This document shows positions 914 through 61,139 of a DNA stretch of 64,000 bases, piece after piece. Under the pieces are notes generated by a model. It saw only the letters and a program-made list of their open reading frames with translations. It made no database searches and was not told the origin of the DNA. Position 1 is the first letter of the stretch. Each line of letters opens with the position of its first letter. Source of the DNA: Multifurca ochricompacta (taxonomy: Eukaryota > Basidiomycota > Agaricomycetes > Russulales > Russulaceae); contig WTXG01000031.1 of the NCBI GenBank assembly GCA_022496185.1, forward strand, positions 186,001 through 250,000, given 5' to 3'. The position numbers and the translations under genes are program-made.

Positions 914-2177
914 CTAGTTCGCTTCCAACTCCGCAATAAGATCTTTTTCTCCAAGAATCATTTCAGCGTACATCTGTAGACCAGTGAGTATCGTAAGAGA
1001 TAAAGTCGTGCATGAAATCTTAGGGTTGCTTACTGATGCATCCACAGGGTGTCCAGCAACGAGCGTGCTTCTCACAGGTGCTTTTTCCAGTCTAAGTCTA
1101 AGCGCAACCCAGTCCGGTTCCTCCACTTTGGGTAGCCCAGCTCCACGGACCGCGAGTGCATCTGCACCGTCATTTCCCGTCTCGCCCGCGTGCCCACGCA
1201 CATATGTAAGCCTTACTTGCTGACCGGACTGTCGCCGCATGGAGAGCAGAGCGTCCACGTACATTATGAGTTCCACGTTCTTGACCGGTGTCCCCGAAGA
1301 CGTGGTAAAGTTCCTTTGACGCCAGCTAGGAAGCCACTCATTAAAACCTGTACAGGGAAATTAGGAGGGAATGTCGAGGCGAAGTGTAATGAAATACATT
1401 TTATGGCATATAGCGAATCTGATTTGATGAGTAGCGGCACTAAATTTATTGAAGCAGTCTGAAGTGCGCGTAGGATAGCCTGAAAACAAGCGTGGATGAG
1501 AAGAAGGACCCCCCCGATTGATAAGAAATCAAAAACTGTCGCACAATCAACTCGGCGCGATTATTGGTTTGCGCGCCCGGACAACGCTCGCAGAGGTTTC
1601 TGTGAGAACAACGATAAATGGGCAGCACCTCCACGCGGAAGCAAACCCACCGAGGATCACTAGGACCCCACCACACTCCGATGCCCGCAGAGGGTCCGAC
1701 TTGCCCGTTATTTGAACACGCGCCGTCTGTGTACACCTCTTCGACCATCGCCGAGGAGGACGGTCCCGCTATAGCGGTGCGCAATTCGCTGACAGGTTGC
1801 AACCTGGACCCTGGTTGAACAATGGGCGTATTCATGATTGCTGATGAGGAGGGCGTTGATGATTGTCGGGCTGTCTGAGAATCGAACGAAGCCCATGCCG
1901 GACCCGGCGGTCTATTTTCCGGCCTAATCAAGTAGGACCGGTCTGGGTCCTCCTGGATCCATGCCTCCGCCTCCTCGAGGGTTCTCAGCTTCTTATATCT
2001 TGCGCGCGGATAACCATATACTTGATCGCGACAGTCTTCCCTAATCACCATAGAGTTCATGTTCAGTAACGATTTCCACCCCAAAAAAAAAAGAACGAAG
2101 GGATTGAAGCACAACCATGTGGTGTATATGCCTGGACTTTTGCCAATTCTGACGGCGTAGAACCCAGCTTTAGGCAT
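914..2177 (-). CDS. RNH1: Ribonuclease H1
   Basis: Degrades the RNA strand of RNA-DNA hybrids. Six exons can be joined on GT-AG borders: 2177-2116, 2040-1651, 1599-1545, 1479-1398, 1347-1034, 973-914. The sum is 963 nt, giving 320 residues. The N-terminus (AGFYAVRIGKSPGIYTTW, then GYPRARYKK and TLEEAEAWI) is the hybrid-binding (viroplasmin-like) domain. A serine/proline linker follows, then the RNase H fold. Its metal-binding residues are present: D in VYTDGACSNNG, E in TNNRAELI, D in LLIKSDSLYA and D in GNDGADALA, with the RGHAG loop. Splicing exon 1 to exon 2 restores the expected W-E-D-C order. It sits tail-to-head with ORC1, with 233 bp between its stop and the ORC1 start. Intact and likely functional. 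Confidence 0.88.
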
Positions 2178-3432
2178 GGTATGATCTGTGTAGGTGCGAA
2201 CCACGAGAGAGAAGAGGAAGTGGTGATACAAGCTATAGCAGCGAAGGATGTGCGAGTGGGCCAATATGGCTTTATAATTATGTGACAACAGGCCACTGGT
2301 ACATGTGAGCGTTCTGGCCCTGGGCAAGAACATTCAAATGGGAGCAACTTGAAGGGGTTGAAATATTGAAGATTGGGACTACTCCTGATCCTGATATAAG
2401 GTTAGGGTCACAGGTCACGCCCAGCAGCCGAGATCAGCTAGGCCCGTACGTGGTGATTAGATTAGATTAGATTGGAATTACTGTCCGAGTCTGCCTGTCT
2501 GTCTGACTGACTGACTGACTGACTGACTGTCTATCTCTGTCTGTCTATGACCGGCGGTTGGAACGTCCACGCCCACGAGGGAACCAAGCGCGCCGAAGAC
2601 CCCGTGAGCTTTCCCTCAGAGCCAGGCTAGTGATTGGAATATATGAAGAGGGTAAATGATGACAACATTCATCATTAGCCCCGTGCACGACGTGTTTGGA
2701 GAGTGCGAGCGTGAAACCGCAAATGTCCATCGCATCGCACCCGAATTAAATTACTTACTTATCCTTCACCCAGTTAAGCCCTGTGCTCACACCGCGGATA
2801 CACTCTCGCTTAACCGAGCTTCGCCCAGTGGCAAAAACGGTTCTCCAAATTGGTGCTTTTTTTAAAATAAAAAAAAATAAAAAACATTAATATGTGAGTA
2901 TGTCAATTATCCCTTTTGTGTTAACATATGGTCGCCAACGCAGAATCGGGATGCGTGAAATTTGAAGTTTCAAACGTACAACGTACAACCATGCTTCCGA
3001 TGACGTCGCTTGCAAGGGGATAACCTGGCGGGAACAAGAAAGAATCGGACAGGTGAAGGCAACGGCTAGCTCAAATCTGATCCGCGTGTCTACTCCCAAG
3101 TCCTGAAGTTGGCCCTCAGCCCGTCACAACTTCTCGGGGAGGTATGTCGTTACTTAGTGAAGTTGGATGCACTACGCCAATGCACATGAACAGGAAGGCA
3201 GTGAATACCAGGCAGATGGTGACCTCCCAAAAAATCTTACCACTTGCTCTGCGGCGGGGTATCACAAGACAGCAACGCGCAGGTCAAGAAGCCAACATAG
3301 ATTTACGGGTATGAAAACACAATAAAATACATGTCGAAGAGTCCAAGGCGAAATAGACGATAACGTACGGAACCTGAGGAAGAGATAAGAGAGTCCAAAA
3401 CAAAGGATAAGTATAGGAAACATACAAAGCGC
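2178..3432. other. Intergenic region without a recognised gene
   Basis: Lies between the RNase H1 start and the HMG-box gene stop. It contains a short tetranucleotide repeat and AT-rich runs near 2860-2890. No reading frame here shows a known domain or a plausible spliced continuation. The part next to 2178 must hold the RNase H1 promoter. Confidence 0.5.
2495..2547. repeat. Simple repeat, (CTGA)n with flanking CTGT/CTAT units
   Basis: About six CTGA units at 2503-2529, embedded in related CTGT/CTAT steps. A short GATTA run lies just upstream (about 2456-2475). An ordinary microsatellite. Confidence 0.85.
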
Positions 3433-21298: not shown

Positions 21299-21809
21299 TG
21301 TTGAACACAGGACATGTTCGGTGATGCTTCAGGCATCAGGAGATTAGATTAGCTGCTTTGTGGATTAGATTAGATTCCGGAGTTTCGGACTTTTTATCAT
21401 ATCATTATTACTTTCTTTCTCACATTCCGCAGTAGCTGACTGATGTACCTTAGTAATGATGCACAAGCATGTGATTCCTTACTGGCCAATGGCCTTTATC
21501 CCTCTTGTTTATTGTTTGGACTTTGTCTGGCACTTGTGGACTTATTCCCAGTGCACAAACCATCCCTCCGATTGTATATAAGGGTGTCTGTTTCGTCTCT
21601 TCCACTTCAGAGTTTCTTCAACATTTGAAGTGTAAGTTCTACTATACTTTCTATCATACCTTTGACTAACCATCTCTTGTAGATACTTGTCTTTCTAGGT
21701 CAGTAGAATAGTAATATAGAGTTTCTTCAACATCTGAAGTATACTTGTCTTTCTAGCCTTACACGCTAACCACTACAGTCAGTATGCTGCACAGTATGCC
21801 TGTTTGACA
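21299..21809 (+). repeat. 5' LTR of Copia-A with internal intron and spliced duplicate
   Basis: 511 bp, TGTTGAACACAGG...TTTGACA. A TATATAAGGG box near 21575 is followed about 35 nt on by exon A (21609-21631). Then come intron 1 (21632-21682, GTAAGT...TTGACTAAC...TTGTAG), exon B (21683-21698, ATACTTGTCTTTCTAG), a linker (21699-21717), and a contiguous A+B copy (21718-21756) that equals the spliced product apart from one T/C. A 53-nt U5 follows. The linker plus A+B also fits a second GT-AG intron (GTCAGT...TTCTAG). Confidence 0.85.
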
Positions 21810-21823
21810 GGTTATGGGCCCTG
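21810..21823 (+). promoter_or_regulatory. Primer binding site, initiator-Met half-tRNA type
   Basis: Directly after the LTR: GGTTATGGGCCCTG. It is complementary, with one mismatch, to the anticodon arm of eukaryotic initiator tRNA-Met (…CAGGGCTCATAACC…), not to a tRNA 3' end. Drosophila copia and yeast Ty5 are known to use this half-tRNA primer. Confidence 0.7.
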
Positions 21824-32633: not shown

Positions 32634-33135
32634 TGTTGAACACAGAAGATGTTCGGTGATGCTTCAGGCATCAGGTGATTAGATTAGCTACTTTGTAGAT
32701 TAGATTAGATACCGGAGTCTCGGACTTTTTACATTATCATTATTACTTTCTTTCTCACATTCCGCAGTAGCTGACTGATGCACCATATAACATGTGATTT
32801 CTGTAGTGGCCAATGGCCTTTCTCCCTCATGTTTATTGTTTGGACTTTGTCCGGCACTTGTGGACTTATTCCCAGTGCACAGACCATCCCTTGGAATAGT
32901 ATATAAGGGTGTCTGTTTCGTCTCTTACACTTCAGAGTTTCCTTCACCTCTGAAGTGTAAGTCCCAGTCTCTCTACTTACTACCTTACCTATAACTAACT
33001 GTCTCTTGTAGATAACTTGTCTCTAGGTGTGTAGTATAGTAATATAGAGTTTCCTTCACCTCTGAAGTATAACTTGTCTCTAGCCTAACCAGCTAACTTT
33101 ACAGTCAGTATGCTGCGCCTCATGCCTGTTTGACA
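32634..33135 (+). mobile_element. Solo LTR (family A), 502 bp, duplication AAGGA
   Basis: TGTTGAACACAG...TTTGACA, with AAGGA at 32629-32633 and 33136-33140. An LTR of the same family as its host element. It contains the exon A / intron / exon B / linker / A+B layout. Here exon A is AGAGTTTCCTTCACCTCTG plus AAGT and exon B is ATAACTTGTCTCTAG, matched by the intron-less copy near 33050-33090. Confidence 0.92.
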
Positions 33136-34894: not shown

Positions 34895-35595
34895 CTAATT
34901 GATAAGATCAAAAACGCGTTCACAATTAATTAGATACTTAGGATATACATCTAAGTGATAAGATCAAAAATGTGTTCACAGTTAATTAGATACTTGGGAT
35001 ATACATCTAATACAAGTGATAAGATCAAAATGCGTTCACAATTAATTAGATACTTGGGATGTACATCTAAGTGATAAGATCAAAAATGCGTTCACAGTTA
35101 ATTGGATACTTAGGATATACATCTAATACAAGTGATAAGATCAAAAATGTGTTCACAATTAATTAGATACTTAGGATGTACATCTAAGTGATAAGATCAA
35201 AAACGCGTTCACAATTAATTAGATACTTGGGATGTACATCTAAGTGATAAGATCAAAAACGCGTTCACAATTAATTAGATACTTGGGATGTACATCTAAG
35301 TGATAAGATCAAAAACGCGTTCACAATTAATTAGATACTTGGGATGTACATCTAAGTGATAAGATCAAAAATGCGTTCACAGTTAATTAGATACTTAGGA
35401 TATACATCTAATACAAGTGATAAGATCAAAAATGCGTTCACAATTAATTAGATACTTGGGATGTACATCTAAGTGATAAGATCAAAAATGCGTTCACAAT
35501 TAATTAGATACTAAAGATATACATCTAAGATAATACAAGTGATAAGATCAAAACGCGTTCACAATTAAATAGATACAAGTGATAAAATCAATTCT
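34895..35595. repeat. Tandem array, 12 units of about 55-61 bp plus a partial
   Basis: Each unit reads GTGATAAGATCAAAAACGCG, TTCACAATTAATTAGATAC, TTGGGATGTACATCTAA, with an optional TACAA extension. Units start near 34901, 34957, 35018, 35073, 35134, 35190, 35245, 35302, 35358, 35419, 35474 and 35540. Variation concentrates at the ACGCG core: ACGCG, ATGCG or ATGTG. Single copies occur at 18246-18290 and, reversed, about 19335-19385. Confidence 0.9.
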
Positions 35596-35637
35596 GCATA
35601 ACCCTATATATAATATATTGTGTGCCTTTACCAGTGA

Positions 35638-35713
35638 GGCTGGGTGGCTTAGTGGTTAGAGCACCGGACTGAGCTTGTTCCTGGAGGTCTTAGGTTCAAT
35701 CCATGTTTCAGCC
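35638..35713 (+). other. tRNA-derived sequence (SINE-head-like)
   Basis: 76 nt with an A box (TGGCTTAGTGG, 35645-35655) and a perfect B box (GGTTCAATCC, 35693-35702). The ends GGCTGGG and TTCAGCC pair with two G-U steps. The D arm (GCTT/GAGC) forms, and CCGGA opens an anticodon stem. The anticodon loop holds extra bases and the T stem is poor, so this is more likely a tRNA relic or SINE promoter than a working tRNA. An A/T-rich tail follows. Confidence 0.5.
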
Positions 35714-36418
35714 ATTTCTGTTCTAGGTTGATGAGCCTAGTAAAAAAATAATTTTATATAATAATATTCCCACAAGTATTCTGCAGGTACCCGTGTGGGT
35801 ACCTGGGGTGCCAAAATCAATACCCGGATCCGCATGAGTATTTTCCCATGGATCACCCGGATCCGCAAGTATCAATACCCGTGAGTTTTCCCACGGCTCT
35901 ACTCAAAAAACTCGCGAGTTACCCGGACTTGTGCTATGCCCTAGATAGAAAGTATAGTAGAACTTACACTTCAGATGTTGAAGAAACTCTGAAGTGGAAG
36001 AGACGAAACAGACACCCTTATATACAATCCAAGGGATGGTCTGTGCACTGGGAATACAGTGCCTCACAAAACTGAGTCAATGTTTTGCACTTTTGCACTG
36101 TTTGTTGAATATCACATCAGCCAAAACAAATATAAACAAAGTCTTGGTAGACCATAAAAGGTACAAGATAAGGGTTATGTAATGCAACAATAATTATGTA
36201 ATTCTGATCAAAACCTGTGGAGCTACACCCATTTCAAATTGGGGACTCATTGACTCAGTTTTGTGAGTGGGTATCAGAAATATCAGAATCTGATGCTCCA
36301 CCAAATGTACAGCAACCAATCCTTAATATATGGTTACCATAGTTATCTTAATATTGATGGGACCTGGAATAGAGCCATTTAAGCATGGTTTACATTCCCA
36401 GAATATTATAATTTCCCA

Positions 36419-38813: not shown

Positions 38814-40835
38814 GTGGCTTCCAGCCACAGTCAGACCCTCTTCTGCAAAGAACTCATCGAACACAGAGATGAGCATAATCTTTCACAACAAGTACTTGGC
38901 TCTGCCACCTGGAAAGATTTTGAATCCGAGTTTGGATACTATGTCTATCACGACAGAGGATACCAACTGGTAGAATACAACAACAAGAAAAGAGTTTGGT
39001 ATCGTATCCGATATTCGGAAAGCCGACACTCTTGGGTCACTACAGGACCCGCCCCACCTGAATTTGGATTAGGACCATGGAGAGAAAATCCCCTGGCCAT
39101 TGTCACAGACTCCAAACCTGAGGAGTACATAGAAGAAAATAGCAAAGAAGCACTGGTATTAGTGTCAACTACAACCCCAGTTGCACTGGCAGTTGTCACG
39201 ATCAGAGCCCCTGCTTTGACAACTCCTCAGATATCCATACAGTCCACCAGTACTGTTACCCCATCCCAAAAGATGTCCACTATCGCCACCCAACTCCCAG
39301 ACCCAGCCCCTCCACCCCACCACCTCCACCAGTCATGATGCCACCGAATATACCCCACCCTCTGGACGACTGTCAGGTGTATTACCCCAGACATTCACTG
39401 GGGATCGTTCCCAGAGCAAGAAATTCATGTTGGAGTTTACGATGTTCAAAAACTTCAACCATGATGTCCCTCAGATTATTAACCCTTTCCAACAAGCCAA
39501 CCTATTCCTATCCTTAATACGAGGAGATGTGGTAGATGACTGGATGATGGAACAGTTGGAGTGGCTAAACGAACAAGTCGAAAGTGGTCGTCGCACCACT
39601 AGTGAAGTTCTCTGGGAAACCATTGCCCAGAGATTCAAAGATGCATTCACAGACGGACAGGCCAAGCAGAAGGCTGCCCGAGAACTAAAGTCCCTAAAAA
39701 TGGAAAAGGGAGAGTTGGACACCTATGTGGCAAAGTTCAGAAGCCTGGCTAATAGGGCTGGGTACAACACAGATGAGGAAGCGACACTGGATCTCTTTTC
39801 ACAAGGGTTGCCCAATCCGCTGGTCAAAAACATTATCCAGTTCCACCACCCCCAGGACTGGGATGGATGGGTTGACGCTGCTCAACAACAGCAGCAGGAT
39901 TACCTCAACTTCCAAACACGTTTTGGAGTCGATATGAAGAAAGGAAAAACCCACAACCAGTGGAAGGCCACCTTTGGGGTAAAACCCACTCACACCTCCC
40001 AGAGGGACCCAAATGCCATGGACACCTTGGCCGACAGAACCAGAGCACAGGCTGTGCTTACTGAAGACGAGAGGCAAACATTGATGAAGGAAGGAAGGTG
40101 CTTTCGCTGCAAAGCACAAGGTCATATGTTGAGGGAATGCCCAAAGAAGGGGGCACGAGTGGCAGAGGCAACAGTTGCACCTGTCCATTGTTGAACACAG
40201 GAGATGTTCGGTGATGCTTCAGGCATCAGGTGATTAGATTAGCTACTTTGAAGATTAGATTAGATACCGGAGTTTCAGACTATTTACATTATCTTTATTA
40301 CTTTCTTTCTCACATTCTGCAGTAGCTGACTGATGCACCATGTAACATGTGATTTCTGTAGTGGCCAATGGCCTTTCTCCCTCATGTTTATTGTTTGGAC
40401 TTTGTCCGGCACTTGTGGACTTATTCCCAGTGCACAGACCATCCCTTGGATAGTATATAAGGGTGTCTGTTTCGTCTCTTACACTTCAGAGTTTCTTCTA
40501 CCTCTGAAGTGTAAGTCGTCCTCTCTACTATCATCACTACCTTGAGACTAACTCTGTATATAGAACTTGTCTTTGTCTAGGTGTGTAGTATAGTATAATA
40601 GAGTTTCTTCTACCTCTGAAGTAACTTGTCTTTGTCTAGCCTAAACCGCTAACCTTCATAGTCAGTATGCTGTGCCACATGCCTGTTTCACATCCATAAC
40701 AATCCACCTACCATTGACAAAAAGACACCAACAAAAGAAGAGAAAGTGCAAGAGATATGGGCCAACATGATGAAGGAGAGTGAAGAAGTGCGGGCCATCT
40801 TAGTAGAGAAGGCATTTGCCAAAAAGGATTTTTGA
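38814..40835 (+). pseudogene. Family B copy 1 Gag
   Basis: Begins 19 nt after the LTR with GTG GCT TCC (…ASSHSQTLFCKEL); no ATG is seen at this point, and copy 2 has GTG too. N-terminal domain (GSATWKDFESEFGYYVYHD), Pro/Thr-rich linker, one frame slip near 39330, then the retrotransposon Gag fold (TFTGDRSQSKKFMLEF, VDDWMMEQLEWLN, RFKDAFTDG, LDLFSQGLPNPLVKNI) and a zinc knuckle CFRCKAQGHMLREC. A 504-bp solo LTR interrupts it at 40189, and the frame resumes with an acidic/Lys-rich end and stops at 40835. Confidence 0.85.
40189..40692 (+). mobile_element. Solo LTR (family A), 504 bp, duplication TCCAT
   Basis: TGTTGAACACAGG...TGTTTCACA, with TCCAT at 40184-40188 and 40693-40697. Exon A AGAGTTTCTTCTACCTCTG plus AAGT, GTAAGT intron with GACTAAC, exon B AACTTGTCTTTGTCTAG, and the exact intron-less copy after the linker. 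Confidence 0.92.
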
Positions 40836-43800
40836 TTGGCTCTACCCCTTCAGCCTGGGCACGAGCATTGCATGTAACCTCTGTGTATACTAGTCACTTC
40901 AAATCATTGAAAATACCAGTACATTTTGAGACTACACAGAGGACAGCCGACTGTGACATCTTGATTGACTCAGGAGCCACCGATAACTTCATCAGCCCAC
41001 AAATGGCAAGGACCATGGGCTTGGGGATGCTGGAACTCCCCCAGGAAAAAAATATTTGGAACATAGACGGAACGGCCAATAAAGCTGGAAGGATCACCCA
41101 CTACACCGACCTTAACGTCCAAGTGGGAGAGAGGACAAAAGCAATTCGATTCCTTGTCACCAATCTTGGAAACAAAGATCTAATCTTGGGATATCCATGG
41201 TTGGCTGCATTTGAACCAAAGATCAACTGGAGCGACACCACTATGGATAAAGAGTTCTATCCTGTTCTCATCATGTCGCTAGGGTACGACTATGCCATCT
41301 GACATACAAGAATACAAGAGGAAGGAAGCACAGATCATTGTTATGCCATGAAAGCATCAGAACTTGCCCAAAAGGCAGTAGAAGGACATGCAGAGAAAAC
41401 CTTTGAGGAGGTAGTGCCGGAAGTCTATCACCGGCATTGGAAGGTGTTCTTGGAGGAGGAATCACAATGCTTCCCACCCATGCAACCTTGGGACCACACC
41501 ATCGAGTTCACACCTGACACCCCATTGGCAATTGATTGCAAAATTTATCCGTTGTCCCAGAACGAGCAAGCAGCACTCATTACATTCCTCAAAGAGCACT
41601 TGCAAAGGGATACATTTGTCCATCGAAGTCACCATACGCATCACCTTTCTTCTTCATCAAGAAAAAGGACGGCAAACTTCAACCTGTTCAGGACTACCGA
41701 CAGATAAATGCCCATACCATAAAGAACGCCTATCCTCTCCCCCTCATCTCCGAGCTCATTGATACCATGCGAGACAAAGCCCTCCTTTCCAAGATGGACA
41801 TCCGGTGGGGATACAACAATATCAGGATTAAAGAAGGAGACCAATGCAAAGCAGCGTTTAAAACTAACCAGGGACTCTTTGAGCCAAATGTTATGTTCTT
41901 TGGCCTTACCAACTCACCTGCTACTTTTCAATCTATGATGAACCACATTTTTCGCGACCTCATCCTCACAGGTGAAGTAGTGGTGTACATGGACAATATC
42001 CTGGTGGCTACAGCCAATGATTTGGTCCATCACAGAGAACAGGTTCACCAAGTGTTGGACATCTTACATGAACATGACCTCTATCTCAAACCAGCCAAAT
42101 GTTCATTCAAGCAACAGAGCGTAGAGTACCTGGGAGTTATCCTGGAAGGAGGACATGTGCAAATGGACCCAGTAAAAGTACAAGGGATCTGAGAGTGGCC
42201 TACTCCTACATGCGTCAAAGACATGCGGTCCTTCATTGGATTCTGCAACTTCTACCGACGATTTGTATGAGGATTCTCAGGAATTGCCCAACTGCTGAAC
42301 AGACTGTTGAAAAAGGACGTACCCTGGCATTGGGGAAAAGAACAGCAGCGAGCCTTTGAGCAGATCCAAGACCTTGTGGGTTCAGAACCGGTCCTCTTGC
42401 AGCCAGACCTAGGCAAACCCTTTGAACTCGAAGTTGATGCATTGCACTTTGCGAATGGTGCAGTACCAAACCAATGGGATGCGGCAGGGTTGCTTCATCC
42501 AGTTGCCTTCTACTCGGAGACATTCTCACCAGCAGAACGAAACTATGACATATGGGACAGAGAGCTACTTGCCATTGTAAAAGCACTATGACATTGGCGA
42601 CCGTATTTAGCAGGGACCCTTCATAAGACCATTATCCACACCAATCACTCCAATCTACTCTATTGGAAGGAACCCCACAAGATTAGTCGACAAGTGGCTT
42701 GCAAAGTTTTGGAGCTGGAGGAATACAATTTTGTATTAAAACACATTGCAGGAAGTCGCAATGCGCGTGCAGATGCCCTGTCACAATGCCCCGATCTAAA
42801 CAATGGGGAGGAAGATAACAACGATATCACGGTGCTCCCTGAAGAAGTCTTTGCAAGAACAGCCGTCGTCAGTCTTCACAACATGGACCTATGGGCACAG
42901 GTGTTGCAAAATATGAACCAACAGTTATGTCAATCATGGGCTGATGCACATAACTTGAAAAAGGTTGACAGCTTATGGTGGAAGGACAGGGATCAACTCA
43001 TTGTCACCGGTGGCGACAACATTAAGAGGGGGGTGATCCATTTTCACCATGACCTTCCCTCTGCGGGCCACCCTGGCATTGCTAACACATACGCCCTGGC
43101 TAAATGAGATTACTGGTGGCCAAACATGAAGAAGGATGTGGAGAACTACGTGAAAGGATGCACAGACTGCCAAGCCAATAAAGTAAACATGCACCCGCAC
43201 CCACCAGCGCCATTCCCGATCATGCCTACATCCTCACTACCATTCCAGACCATTGCAATGGATTTTATTGTCAAACTCCCAGTCTCCAGAGGTTTTGATT
43301 CCATCTTGACCATCACCGACCATGACTGTTCGAAAGCAGCACTCTTCATACCATGCAATGAGTCCATCACAGCAGAAGGTGTAGCCAAACTTTACCTGGA
43401 TCACGTTTATAGGCATTACGGACTCCCTGGAAAGATCATCTCAGACCGCGACCCATGTTTTACCTCTACATTTGCCAGAGCACTTTGTAAAGTCTTGGAT
43501 ATAACCCAGAACATCTCGACAGCCTACCACCCACAGACAGATGGACAGTCAGAAAGGACAAACCAGTGGCTTGAGCAATATCTTCGATTCTGGTGTAATG
43601 GACGACAGGACGATTGGGCTGACTGGCTGGCAATGGCAGAGTTTGCACATAATTCCTGGCCCAACAGCACCACAAAGACCCCCCCATTTTCACTTATCAT
43701 GGGATGGACGCCCCAAACCACCTGGGCCAAAAAACCCACAAATGTCCCATCAGCTGCACAGCATATCAGCCAATGGGAAGAGATCAGGAAATCAGCCAAT

Positions 43801-44301
43801 GAGAACCTGTTGAAGGCGCAGAAGACCCTTTCAGAAAGACCTTCGAAGTTCACACCTTATCAGACCAATAACCTCATATGGTTGGAAGGGAAGAATATTC
43901 ACATGTCACACCCAACAGCCAAACTAGTGCCCCGACGTCACGGACCTTTCAAGATAACAAGGAAGCTGTCAGATGTGTCATACAAACTCAAACTTCCATC
44001 CACATGGAGAATCCATCCAGTCTTCCATGCCAGACTTTTGACACCCTACAAAGAGACATCCCTACATGGGGAAAACTTCCTGAGACCTCCCCCTGAATTA
44101 ATTGATGGAGAAGCAGAGTGGGAAGTGGAACAAATTCTAGACTCCCTATGTAAAGGCCAAGGGTGCAAGCTACATTACCTTGTCAAGTGGAAAGGGTTCC
44201 CAGACTCGGACAACTCGTGGGAGCCAGCCGGGAATATCTTTGCCCCAGTTCTTATCTCAGAGTTCCACACCCAACATCCAGAAGCACCCAAAGATAGTTA
44301 A
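40832..44301 (+). pseudogene. Family B copy 1 Pol with chromodomain
   Basis: The frame overlaps the gag end. Protease [45 protein letters not shown] and [11 protein letters not shown], with YMDN in place of YMDD; RNase H region HTNHSNLLYW, where copy 2 has TDH; integrase zinc-binding region around HHDLPSAGHPG and GCTDCQANK, then [20 protein letters not shown] and [12 protein letters not shown] (D,D,E present). The chromodomain [11 protein letters not shown]...[17 protein letters not shown] closes it. TGA stops at 41300, 42190, 42268, 42589 and 43105, four of them at probable CGA codons; a one-base slip lies near 41605. Dead in RT and in translation. Confidence 0.9.
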
Positions 44302-45473: not shown

Positions 45474-45974
45474 TGTGGAACAGGCATGTGCGCAGCATAC
45501 TGACTGTAGTGGTTAGCGTGTAAGGCTAGACAAAGAAAGTTACTTCAGATGTTAGAAGAACTCTATTAACTATACTACTGACCTAGACAAAGAAAGTTCT
45601 ATGTAAAGAACGTTAGTCTAATTGGTAAAGTAGATAGTATGAAAGGAACTTACACTTCAGATGTTAGAAGAACTCTGAAGTGTAGAGGACGAAACAGACA
45701 CCCTTATATACTCTTCAAGGGATGGTCTGTGCACTGGGAATAAGTCCACAAGTGCCGGACAAAGTCCAAACAATAAACATGAGAGAGAAAGGCCATTGGC
45801 CATTACAGAAATCACATGTTACATGGTGTATCAGTCAGCTACTGCGGAATGTGAGAAAGAAAGTAATAATGATAATGTAAAAGTCCGAAACTCCGGTATC
45901 TAATCTAATCTACAAAGTAGCTAATCTAATCACCTGATGCCTGAAGCATCACCGAACATCTTCTGTGTTCAACA
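45474..45974 (-). mobile_element. Family A LTR, reverse, without matching duplications
   Basis: On the plus strand TGTGGAACAGGC...TTCAACA. On its own strand: exon A AGAGTTCTTCTAACATCTG plus AAGT, a GTAAGT intron, exon B AACTTTCTTTGTCTAG, linker, and an identical intron-less A+B. Flanks ACCAA and TCCCT differ, so it is not a clean insertion. Confidence 0.85.
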
Positions 45975-59312: not shown

Positions 59313-60174
59313 TTCCTTCCTTCATCAATGTTTGCCACTCATCTTCTGTGAGCATGGCTCATGCTCTAGCTCTGTTGGCAGACATATCCATGGCATTTGG
59401 GTCTCATTGGGAGGTAGGTTTAACTCCAAATGCTGCCTTCCATTGGTCTTGTTGTCAAACAATCATGCTGCTGGTTATACTGACTGTGGTTAGTAGCGGT
59501 TTAGGCTAAAAGACAAGTAGTACTTCAGAGGTTAGAAGAACTCTTATACAACTATACTACTGACCTAAAAGACAAGTAGTCTACAGAAGACGGTTAGTCA
59601 AAGGTAAAGAAGAGTATAGTAAAAGGAACTTACACTTCAGAGGTTAGAAGAACTCTGAAGTGGAAGAGATGAAACAGACACCCTTATATACCCATAGGGG
59701 CCAGGGGAAATGGTCTGTGCGCACTGGAATAAGTCCACAAGTGCCGGACAATAAACAGAGAGGGATAAAGGCCATTGGCCAAAGAGATATCACATGCTTA
59801 CTGCGCATTACTAAGTCCATCACTAATCAGCTGAGTAAGGTGAGAAAGAAATGTAATAAAGATAACATAAAAAGTCCGATACTCCGGAATCCAATCTAAT
59901 CTAATCTACAGCAGAAGCGAACCTTAGATGCCTGAAGCATCTCCAGACACATCCTGTGTCAACACTCGTGTTTTCCCCTTTTTGGTTTTGATCCCAAAGC
60001 ATGTCTGGAAATCGAGATAATCCTGCTGCTGTCATCATGCAGTGTTGATCCACTGAGTCCAGTTATGGGGATGGTGGAACTGGATGATGTTTTTGACTAA
60101 TGGATTCAGAAGACCTTGGGAAAAGAGGTCCAGGGTGGCTTCCTCATCCACATCATATCCAGCACAGTTGGTGG
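59313..60174 (-). pseudogene. Family B copy 3, gag fragment split by a solo LTR
   Basis: On the minus strand from 60174: YDVDEEATLDLFSQGL, then across the LTR QWKAAFGVKPTSQ, DPNAMDM, and the start of the knuckle region, where the B copy 2 LTR cuts it. Contains TGA at expected Arg positions. No other part of this copy remains. Confidence 0.8.
59453..59964 (-). mobile_element. Solo LTR (family A), 512 bp, near-duplication CTTGT/CTCGT
   Basis: On the plus strand TGTCAAACAATC...TGTGTCAACA. CTTGT at 59448-59452 and CTCGT at 59965-59969; copy 2 has CTCGT at this place, so one side decayed. On its own strand exon A AGAGTTCTTCTAACCTCTG plus AAGT, a GTAAGT intron, exon B ACTACTTGTCTTTTAG and an exact intron-less copy. 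Confidence 0.88.
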
Positions 60175-61139
60175 TGTTGAACACAGAATGTGTCCAGTGA
60201 TGCTTCAGGCATCAGGAGATTAGATTAGCTACTTTGTGGACTAGATTAGATATCGGAGTTTCGGACTATTTACCATATCATTATTACTTTCTTTCTCACA
60301 TTCCACAGTAGCTGACTGATGTACCTTACTAATGATGTACAAGCATGTGATTCCTTATTGGCCAATGGCCTTTATCCCTCTTGTTTATTGTTTGGACTTT
60401 GTCTGGCACTTGAGGACTTATTCCCAGTGCACAGACCATCCCTTGAAGAGTATATAAGGGTGTCTGTTTCATCTCTTACACTTCAGAGTTTCTTCTACCT
60501 CTGAAGTGTAAGTCCCTTTTCTTACTTACTATCATACCTTGAGACTAATGCTCCTTGTAGTAACTTGTCTTTGTCTAGGTCAGTAGTATAGTATAATAGA
60601 GTTTCTTCTACCTCTGAAGTTAACTTGTCTTTGTCTAGCTTAACTTGCTAACCACACAGTCAGTATGCTGCGCCTCATGCCTGTTCGACAGGTTATGGGC
60701 CCTGGGCATGCTTAACTGATCTGTTACTATTTTTTTTGATCAGTCCAACTTTACTCCTTCAAGCTCACCAAAGCTTCAAGACTCCCTTCCCAATCAGTCT
60801 TCCTTGTGAGCTTTGCTTTATATTCTCTTGCCCTTAACTGTCCACAAGGTGGTGCACTTCATGTGCCCACCTTGATCTGTCTGGCTAGTCCCTCAGGGGA
60901 TTCTTGCAAGAGGTGATGAGGGACCCTAAGCAGGTGAAACACCTTGAGTTCCTCATGTGCGCTCTAAGTAAATAGTATTCTTAGTTGTAGCTGGGTTTTC
61001 ATCCCATCCATAGTCTTAGTAGGCCACTTGCCCAGAAGGCTTGGGGCTATAGGTTCAGTCAATGCTTGGCTCGATCTGTAAGCCAGGTTTAGCGACCTGC
61101 AGGTAGAGTTTAGGGTCTAGAACAAGGCATGGGTAGTCA
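60175..61139 (+). mobile_element. Copia-A copy 2: LTR plus leader, truncated
   Basis: LTR 60175-60690 (exon A AGAGTTTCTTCTACCTCTG plus AAGT, GTAAGT intron with GACTAAT, exon B TAACTTGTCTTTGTCTAG, intron-less A+B identical). The half-tRNA site GGTTATGGGCCCTG and the leader follow, ending where the TIR element starts. It entered the gag of family B copy 3. Confidence 0.88.

Follow-up and report, generated by a model that had tools for sequence, protein, structure and literature searches.

A Ty1/copia retrotransposon with two R copies per LTR, one intron-split and one joined

A normal LTR contains one R, which is used at both ends of the RNA, and retrotransposition via RNA is expected to erase introns. 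In HTLV/BLV and the foamy viruses a splice donor lies in R, near the cap, and R is again single; in Ty1, strand transfer leaves untidy ends, with variable bases at the U3/R junction. Plant LTR elements are, according to the available part of one source, generally without introns, the exceptions being Ogre and EVADE, in which introns serve to make subgenomic RNAs (PMC12786077). In the available main text of an account of Copia elements in filamentous ascomycetes, the word 'intron' does not occur (PMC5445492). Across the literature covered, on introns in LTRs, on R regions that are split or present in duplicate, on strand transfer and on leaders that are spliced (a coverage outside which most subscription papers lie), no LTR with an intron plus its spliced copy is described.

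The LTRs analysed here, designated family A, have the order U3-A-intron-B-linker-A'B'-U5, in which A'B' is the spliced form of A plus B. Those first described lie in a 64-kb window (the whole stretch of DNA covered by the earlier note), part of a genome of 53.8 Mb in 605 contigs. A first-pass annotation of the window had described, in six named LTRs, a TATA box followed by exon A, a GT-AG intron with a CTAAC-type branch site, exon B, a linker and an intron-less join of A and B. All of these are present in all six, the intron having the form GTAAGT...TAG. The single T/C difference it had reported in the copy at 21.3 kb is likewise present, between A and A', the remaining five named LTRs being exact. 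Its named positions 32634, 40189 and 60175 are LTR starts on the forward strand, whereas 45474 and 59453 turn out to be the far ends of minus-strand LTRs, the true starts of which are 45974 and 59964.

The copy at 21.3 kb, which lies on the forward strand, illustrates the layout. Its 5' LTR (21299..21809; TGTTGA...TGACA) is adjoined by the PBS GGTTATGGGCCC (21810..21821), a string found after 5' LTRs, which we take to match the anticodon arm of initiator tRNA-Met. The TATA box (21575..21581) is the string TATATAAGGGTGTCTGTTTCRTC, with 1,095 occurrences in the genome. Exon A, the first R copy or R1 (21609..21631), and exon B (21683..21698) were placed by the best-split search described below and by the sequence itself, and intron 1 between them (21632..21682; 51 nt, GTAAGT...CTAAC...TAG) by the same search and by parsing. 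The A/T-rich linker that follows (21699..21717) starts with GTCAGT, which resembles a 5' splice site in keeping with the count of AG/GTNNGT given below, and possibly holds a poly(A) signal. Next come A', the second R copy or R2 (21718..21740; best-split search and parsing), on which strong-stop DNA would land, and the pyrimidine-rich B' (21741..21756; sequence and conservation), with an AG at its end that would be the 3' splice site of intron 2; the linker and A'B' together would constitute that intron. U5, assigned from sequence, occupies 21757..21809, and its first ~20 nt (for example 21757-21780 and its relatives) are highly variable between LTRs, often retaining CTAAC...CAG, like a further branch site and acceptor. 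A predicted hairpin has its 5' arm, CACTTC/AGAG (21603..21612), across the putative start site, as judged from conservation of CACTTCAGA and from folding, and its 3' arm (21623..21632) reaches into the 5' splice site, as judged from sequence, folding and conservation; this 3' arm is weaker in the 21.3 kb copy, which has the T of the T/C difference.

The segment A-intron-B-linker-A'B' occupies 32934..33083 (+) in the LTR at 32634, with AAGGA on each flank of the LTR; 40488..40639 (+) in the LTR at 40189, with TCCAT on each flank; 45526..45676 (-) in the LTR starting at 45974, which is preceded by a PPT-like GGAGGGA; 59506..59656 (-), assigned from sequence, in the LTR starting at 59964; and 60485..60638 (+) in the LTR at 60175, a 5' LTR that the PBS adjoins. 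A seventh family A LTR in the window, near 36.0 kb (35944-36056, -), has its intron 1 interrupted by an insertion, so it could not be scored. The window also contains a DUF6535 gene, which points to an agaricomycete as host. An ORF at 1446-2333 (-) carries the RNase H1 N-terminal (Cauli_VI) domain, and its RNase H match is weak and falls short of the Pfam cut-off. The 40.2 kb LTR begins where a retrotransposon gag ORF (39427-40194) ends, an ORF that weakly matches the Ty3 capsid; another ORF has weak integrase matches and a chromodomain at its end (43126-44301). Tandem repeats at 34911-35646 form an irregular array in which the spacings are 56 and 116-117 nt, and after it there is a weak tRNA match (35638-35714).

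The element belongs to the Ty1/copia retrotransposons, and its LTR is of a new kind. Retrotran_gag_2 was matched downstream of the 5' LTR L003 (3e-10) and RVT_2 upstream of the 3' LTR L006 (4.6e-18); at L006 a tail of ~247 aa between RVT_2 and the LTR matched no Pfam family. Among 21 putative LTR pairs, the 5-bp TSDs are perfect in 13, mismatching in 4 and unreadable in 4, and the PBS GGTTATGGGCCC follows the 5' LTR in 20, the remaining pair (L126) having it within two mismatches. In L075/L076, L128/L129 and similar pairs, the differences between the LTRs of one element often look like C/T or G/A changes at CG sites, of the kind that methylation or RIP-like mutation may leave.

Exact patterns for the U3-A-intron-B-linker-A'B'-U5 layout matched at no fewer than 1,380 places in the genome (1,126 plus 254 matches, duplicated segments included), the counts being of exact matches and hence lower bounds. 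The 254 matches with a shorter gap were considered as exon-skipped LTRs, in which A' would be joined to U5, a reading rejected for the 100 listed among them, which have a normal span (172-187 nt) and begin, over their first 80 letters, as ordinary LTRs. The standard LTR with a single R is not what was found here, two R-like copies being present at the at least 1,380 places and single-R forms at 56.

The correspondence between the joined copy and the exons was examined with a best-split search for two segments whose join matches a downstream stretch, in which GT-AG was not required. In the first set, a joined copy was found in 58 of 61 LTRs, 52 of them without mismatch over 33 nt, and GT...AG lay at a best split in 54 of the 58. 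In a larger set of 138 LTRs, with identical LTRs entered once, it was found in 133 (111 without mismatch over 33 nt), with GT-AG in 123 of the 133. Removal of 13 rows left 125 parsed LTRs. No joined copy was found in five of the rows removed: two were collapsed LTRs, one had an insertion, and the other two were L123 and L141. L069 contributed three more LTRs, of which two were without mismatch; L095, L116 and L166 had indels; and in L049:259 and L052:262 B does not end in AGGT. Because the parse sought AGGT at this position, it imposes the GT and AG that it counts there. In 107 of the 125, which carry 69 distinct A+B sequences, the joined copy A'B' is identical along all ~39 nt to A plus B of the same LTR, compared with a mean of 2.8 exact matches and a maximum of 10 when the pairing was shuffled in 10,000 rounds; among loci fetched without anchors in the A-B region, 48 of 54 are exact. 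The unconstrained search and the shuffles together rule out a chance split as the source of the joined copy.

The joined copy also tracks its own exons more closely than those of its relatives. With LTR distances measured on U3, intron and linker, A+B match exactly in 54% of the 92 comparisons at a distance below 3%, among which are those between the two LTRs of a single element, in 6.5% of 1,842 comparisons at 3-8%, and in at most 1% farther out, as against 86% within one LTR. At a variable site in B, for which 226 matches were counted, B and B' agree at 98 of the 100 places listed (T/T 93, A/A 5, A/T 2, T/A 0). A tandem duplicate of an ordinary R, with units evolving independently, was rejected on the match to own exons, the comparison with relatives and this variable site. 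Independent evolution of the two units within LTRs, which the first-pass annotation had named as an outcome that would speak against its interpretation, did not occur: across the 125 LTRs the match to own exons far exceeds the match to relatives.

Intron 1 is 49-57 nt long, begins with GTAAGT in 121 of the 125 LTRs and has YTNAY within its last 25 nt in all 125; in a conservation count its splice signals are near-invariant. With GT-AG ends, a branch site and a fungal intron length, it has the appearance of a spliceosomal intron, and the joined copy records in DNA the splicing of A to B, from which we infer that the intron is removed from the RNA. The pair L003/L006 (C158; TSD GATTG) and L154 have an intron 1 that ends in GA or GG, not AG, next to a correct joined copy. 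The change in L003/L006 is in both LTRs and so arose before insertion; a broken acceptor beside a correct joined copy would need damage in the parent's other LTR, or late damage.

The positions of the two units relative to the TATA box bear on where transcription begins. In the 21.3 kb copy, A begins 34 nt past the start of the TATA box, which is a normal start-site distance, and A' begins 143 nt past it. The second unit could in principle be the true start and the true R, the first being an old duplicate that merely resembles an intron-containing one, and A'B'-U5 by itself does look like a normal R-U5; against this stand the TATA distances, the failure of the units to evolve independently and the near-invariant splice signals of intron 1, and we give this explanation almost no credence.

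We regard it as highly probable that these LTRs have a 'split R' in which R2 is overwritten in each cycle by spliced R1, a reading of the LTR sequences that extends the cycle proposed in the first-pass annotation. Transcription would start with the first base of A. Two splicing events in the 5' leader would join A to B and B to U5, so that the linker and the old A'B' depart with intron 2. Reverse transcriptase, primed beside U5 as the position of the PBS indicates, would copy U5-B-A, and this strong-stop DNA would anneal to A' at the 3' end of the RNA, within the 3' LTR. Synthesis would then proceed through linker, B, intron 1, A and U3, and the resulting LTR would again be U3-A-intron-B-linker-A-B-U5, with spliced A+B (R1) written over A'B' (R2). 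The intron would be kept in the new copy because it is re-read from the unspliced 3' copy. The A/T-rich linker, with its likely poly(A) signal, would be spliced from the leader and retained at the RNA 3' end. The interpretation is supported both by the correspondence within the DNA and by by-products that were sought and found (L070, L069 and the collapsed LTRs), which are described below.

Differences between B and B' that predate insertion are informative on the direction of copying. The two discordant A/T places at the variable site are the two LTRs of one element, L094/L095 (TSD CCCTT), with TTATAG in B and TTTTAG in B' in each LTR. Being present in both, the difference predates insertion, and the pattern agrees with an origin of B in the 3' LTR of the parent and of B' in its 5' LTR. 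The A state is also found elsewhere in both B and B', though with no proven descendant of L094/L095; a T-to-A series as one lineage was rejected, L128/L129 not being sisters of L094/L095. The B/B' difference shared by L098/L099 was set aside as a second pre-insertion case, the flanks having no TSD, and in the TSD-verified pairs L097, L104 and L125 the difference is confined to one LTR and so arose later. Of the other differences seen in several rows, that at position -23 lies beyond A wherever A is 22 nt long, and L026 and L097, which both have a T/C at A's final base, are of separate lineages. L049:259 (a 5' LTR) and L052:262 are separate insertions, both on contig C3, that differ by 10 substitutions of 454, and in both B ends in T and B' in G (the joined copy ends in AG). 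They are possibly siblings of one parent. The proposed cycle would permit such a shared difference for siblings only, and its persistence over many insertions would contradict the cycle; offspring of either would, under the cycle, lose the intron 2 acceptor.

The second splicing event in the leader would remove an intron of 54-60 nt. Among 50 LTRs that have no mismatch and come from unanchored loci, AG/GTNNGT, which was not imposed, is present at the end of B in 48, the exceptions being L049 and L052, and B' ends in AG in 53 of 54 LTRs. Within the last 36 nt of A'B', YTNAY is present in 77 of the 125 LTRs and absent in 48; B is pyrimidine-rich, so the second copy can act as an acceptor. The CTAAC...CAG of U5 was rejected as the acceptor of intron 2, since its use would strip the start of U5 from the template, yet copies keep it. 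The main alternative to splicing of intron 2 is loss of the repeat by template jumping, in which the leader is spliced at intron 1 only and reverse transcriptase jumps between A'B' and AB. These are direct repeats of ~39 nt with a linker of 15-20 nt between them, and collapsed LTRs show that repeat loss can happen. Imperfect jumps, however, should yield many three-unit LTRs, whereas a single spliced one (L070) stands against at least 1,380 two-unit places, and jumping has no need of AG/GTNNGT at the end of B; we consider it unlikely.

The proposed cycle makes predictions about faulty copies. L070 (TSD AAGGG) has the form A-i-B-L-A-B-L-A-B (i, intron; L, linker), as predicted for retention of intron 2, and L069, the TSD of which is not readable, has the form A-i-B-L-A-i-B-L-A-B, as predicted for an unspliced leader. 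Strict anchors found no three-unit LTR in the genome; a looser pattern gave two matches, of which L070 is real and the other unrelated. The form A-B-L-A-B, in which intron 1 is lost and the linker kept, as would follow from splicing in the 3' copy, had no match in the genome with the patterns used; on such a template strong-stop DNA would find a longer A-B match, and the product might itself be a collapsed LTR.

Collapsed LTRs, U3-A-B-U5, have the form expected if strong-stop DNA were to land on the first A. They were counted by pattern at 56 places, some of them duplicated segments (L079-L082 have common flanks); 27 of the 56 were examined as loci (L020, L060, L071-L089, L170-L175) and the rest as pattern matches. 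In three elements, with TSDs GCTTG, TAAAG and ACCCA, the collapse is present in both LTRs, which, together with the TSDs, indicates that it formed before integration. When 149 LTRs are placed on a U3 tree, the 25 that are collapsed (L085, a rearranged outlier, among them) call for no fewer than 17 changes; collapse is thus recurrent and seems to leave few offspring. A probable exception is L087 and L088, near-identical collapsed LTRs at separate sites, which suggest that intron-less elements can transpose and that the split-R architecture is no absolute requirement.

Unequal exchange in DNA, between A and A' or between B and B', could also produce both the collapsed and the expanded shapes. 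A related explanation is that recombination or gene conversion within the chromosome keeps the two units alike once the element has inserted; this explanation we find very improbable. Four 5'/3' LTR pairs that are identical over the 455 nt compared already have matching units (no mismatch over 33 nt), the homogenization ends at the putative start site and the exon edges and omits the intron, and the collapse in both LTRs of the three TSD-bearing elements again argues against such exchange.

The split-R cycle places strand transfer at A', and the edges of the two units differ in their variability. The base 5' of A is C in all 58 TATA-anchored LTRs, whereas the base 5' of A' is T in 96, C in 17, A in 9 and G in 3 of the 125 LTRs, with 0-2 extra bases on otherwise similar linkers. 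Variability at A', and not at A, would be expected of a scar of strand transfer, that is, of untemplated bases at the U3/R junction.

For the cycle to work, intron 1 must persist in the 3' LTR, a point for which the first-pass annotation gave no reason, and the hairpin offers a means by which it may do so. In the proposed structure, pairing of (CTTA)CACTTC+AGAG with CTCTGAAGTG(TAAG) would make the 5' splice site inaccessible. The 5' arm CACTTCAGA is present in 58 of 58 TATA-anchored LTRs and, with up to four further bases, pairs with CTCTGAAGTG(TAAG), which is the end of A plus the 5' splice site. The upstream half of the 5' arm lies before the start site, so the full hairpin can form only in RNA that contains U3; RNA starting at AGAG would miss half the arm, leaving the splice site open. 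Folding of the 40.2 kb copy gave a hairpin of 14 bp (-20.1 kcal/mol, z -5.55), and contiguous stems of 10-14 bp are present in 116 of the 125 LTRs, the other nine having fewer than 10 bp. Among 54 LTRs, positions -6 to +5 of the 5' arm are 98-100% conserved, and the 3' arm (eight bases before and six after the exon edge) is 96-100% conserved apart from its innermost base (0.89), while conservation in the loop falls to 0.46-0.5 at several positions. The same hairpin pattern was absent from the viral contigs searched.

The cost of opening the nine U1-bound bases was computed for four RNA lengths, giving means of 3.1-5.6 kcal/mol for RNA from the start site and 9.9-12.1 kcal/mol with U3 included; the cost is greater with U3 in 125 of 125 LTRs at each length, and falls to 4.0-5.6 kcal/mol when the last 14 nt of U3 are shuffled (once per LTR). 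Mean pairing probability, a weaker measure than opening energy, shows no difference between the two RNAs when these end with the intron (0.22 open vs 0.24), a clear difference when they end at the linker (0.50 vs 0.26) or at A' (0.48 vs 0.27), and a small one with U5 included (0.33 vs 0.27; higher in 79 of 125). In folds of the 3' RNA, openness is 0.39 for the first A and 0.49 for A' (A' more open in 111 of 125), a difference that by this computation would conceal the first A from strong-stop DNA and steer it to A'.

From these models, sealing of the 5' splice site by the hairpin is the likely explanation for the survival of intron 1 in the 3' LTR. A less probable but still plausible alternative is that the cycle operates as described, with the intron persisting by virtue of cap distance or quick cleavage and polyadenylation, and that the inverted repeat is a promoter element. 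The 5' arm does lie at the start site, where core-promoter sequence is expected; the outer stem is variable (position -7 is A in only 59%), and the pairing probabilities differ little in some foldings. Against this alternative stand the difference in opening energy in every LTR, dependent on the 14 nt before the start site, the conservation of both arms around a more variable loop and the z value of one copy. On balance we lean towards the fuller scheme, in which the spliceosome would serve as one step in template switching: a hairpin halved by the start site would let the intron be spliced at the 5' end of the RNA and spare it at the 3' end, and with each cycle the joined copy would be rewritten, the intron kept and the 5' poly(A) signal removed.

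The family thus appears to keep an intron through retrotransposition by reading the intron from one end of the RNA and the spliced exons from the other. If this is true, RNA splicing is a working step in the rebuilding of an LTR, and the host splicing machinery is part of the copying cycle. The scheme suggests an answer to how RNAs that contain R ignore the poly(A) signal at their 5' end, namely that the signal is spliced out, and it offers a simple position switch for splicing in the form of a hairpin halved by the start site. The DNA of the genome would preserve a record of the cycle, errors included.

Compared with described systems, the element resembles other Ty1/copia retrotransposons in its copia-type gag and RT domains, TG...CA LTRs, 5-bp TSDs and a PBS adjoining the 5' LTR, and differs from them in that its LTR has two copies of R, one interrupted by an intron and the other joined. 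It has in common with HTLV/BLV and the foamy viruses a splice site near the cap inside the LTR, but their spliced products are mRNAs and not the template for strong-stop DNA. The untidy ends of Ty1 differ in position, the variable bases here lying at A' and not at the first A. With Ogre and EVADE it shares functional introns in an LTR retrotransposon; as far as the available part of the source goes, theirs serve subgenomic RNAs, (PMC12786077), whereas here the LTR itself contains the intron, and the RNA, once spliced, would template the rebuilding of that LTR. With the intron-marked Ty reporters, as covered in the same part of that source (PMC12786077), it shares reverse transcription of a spliced RNA, but there the new copy loses the intron, and here the intron is kept.
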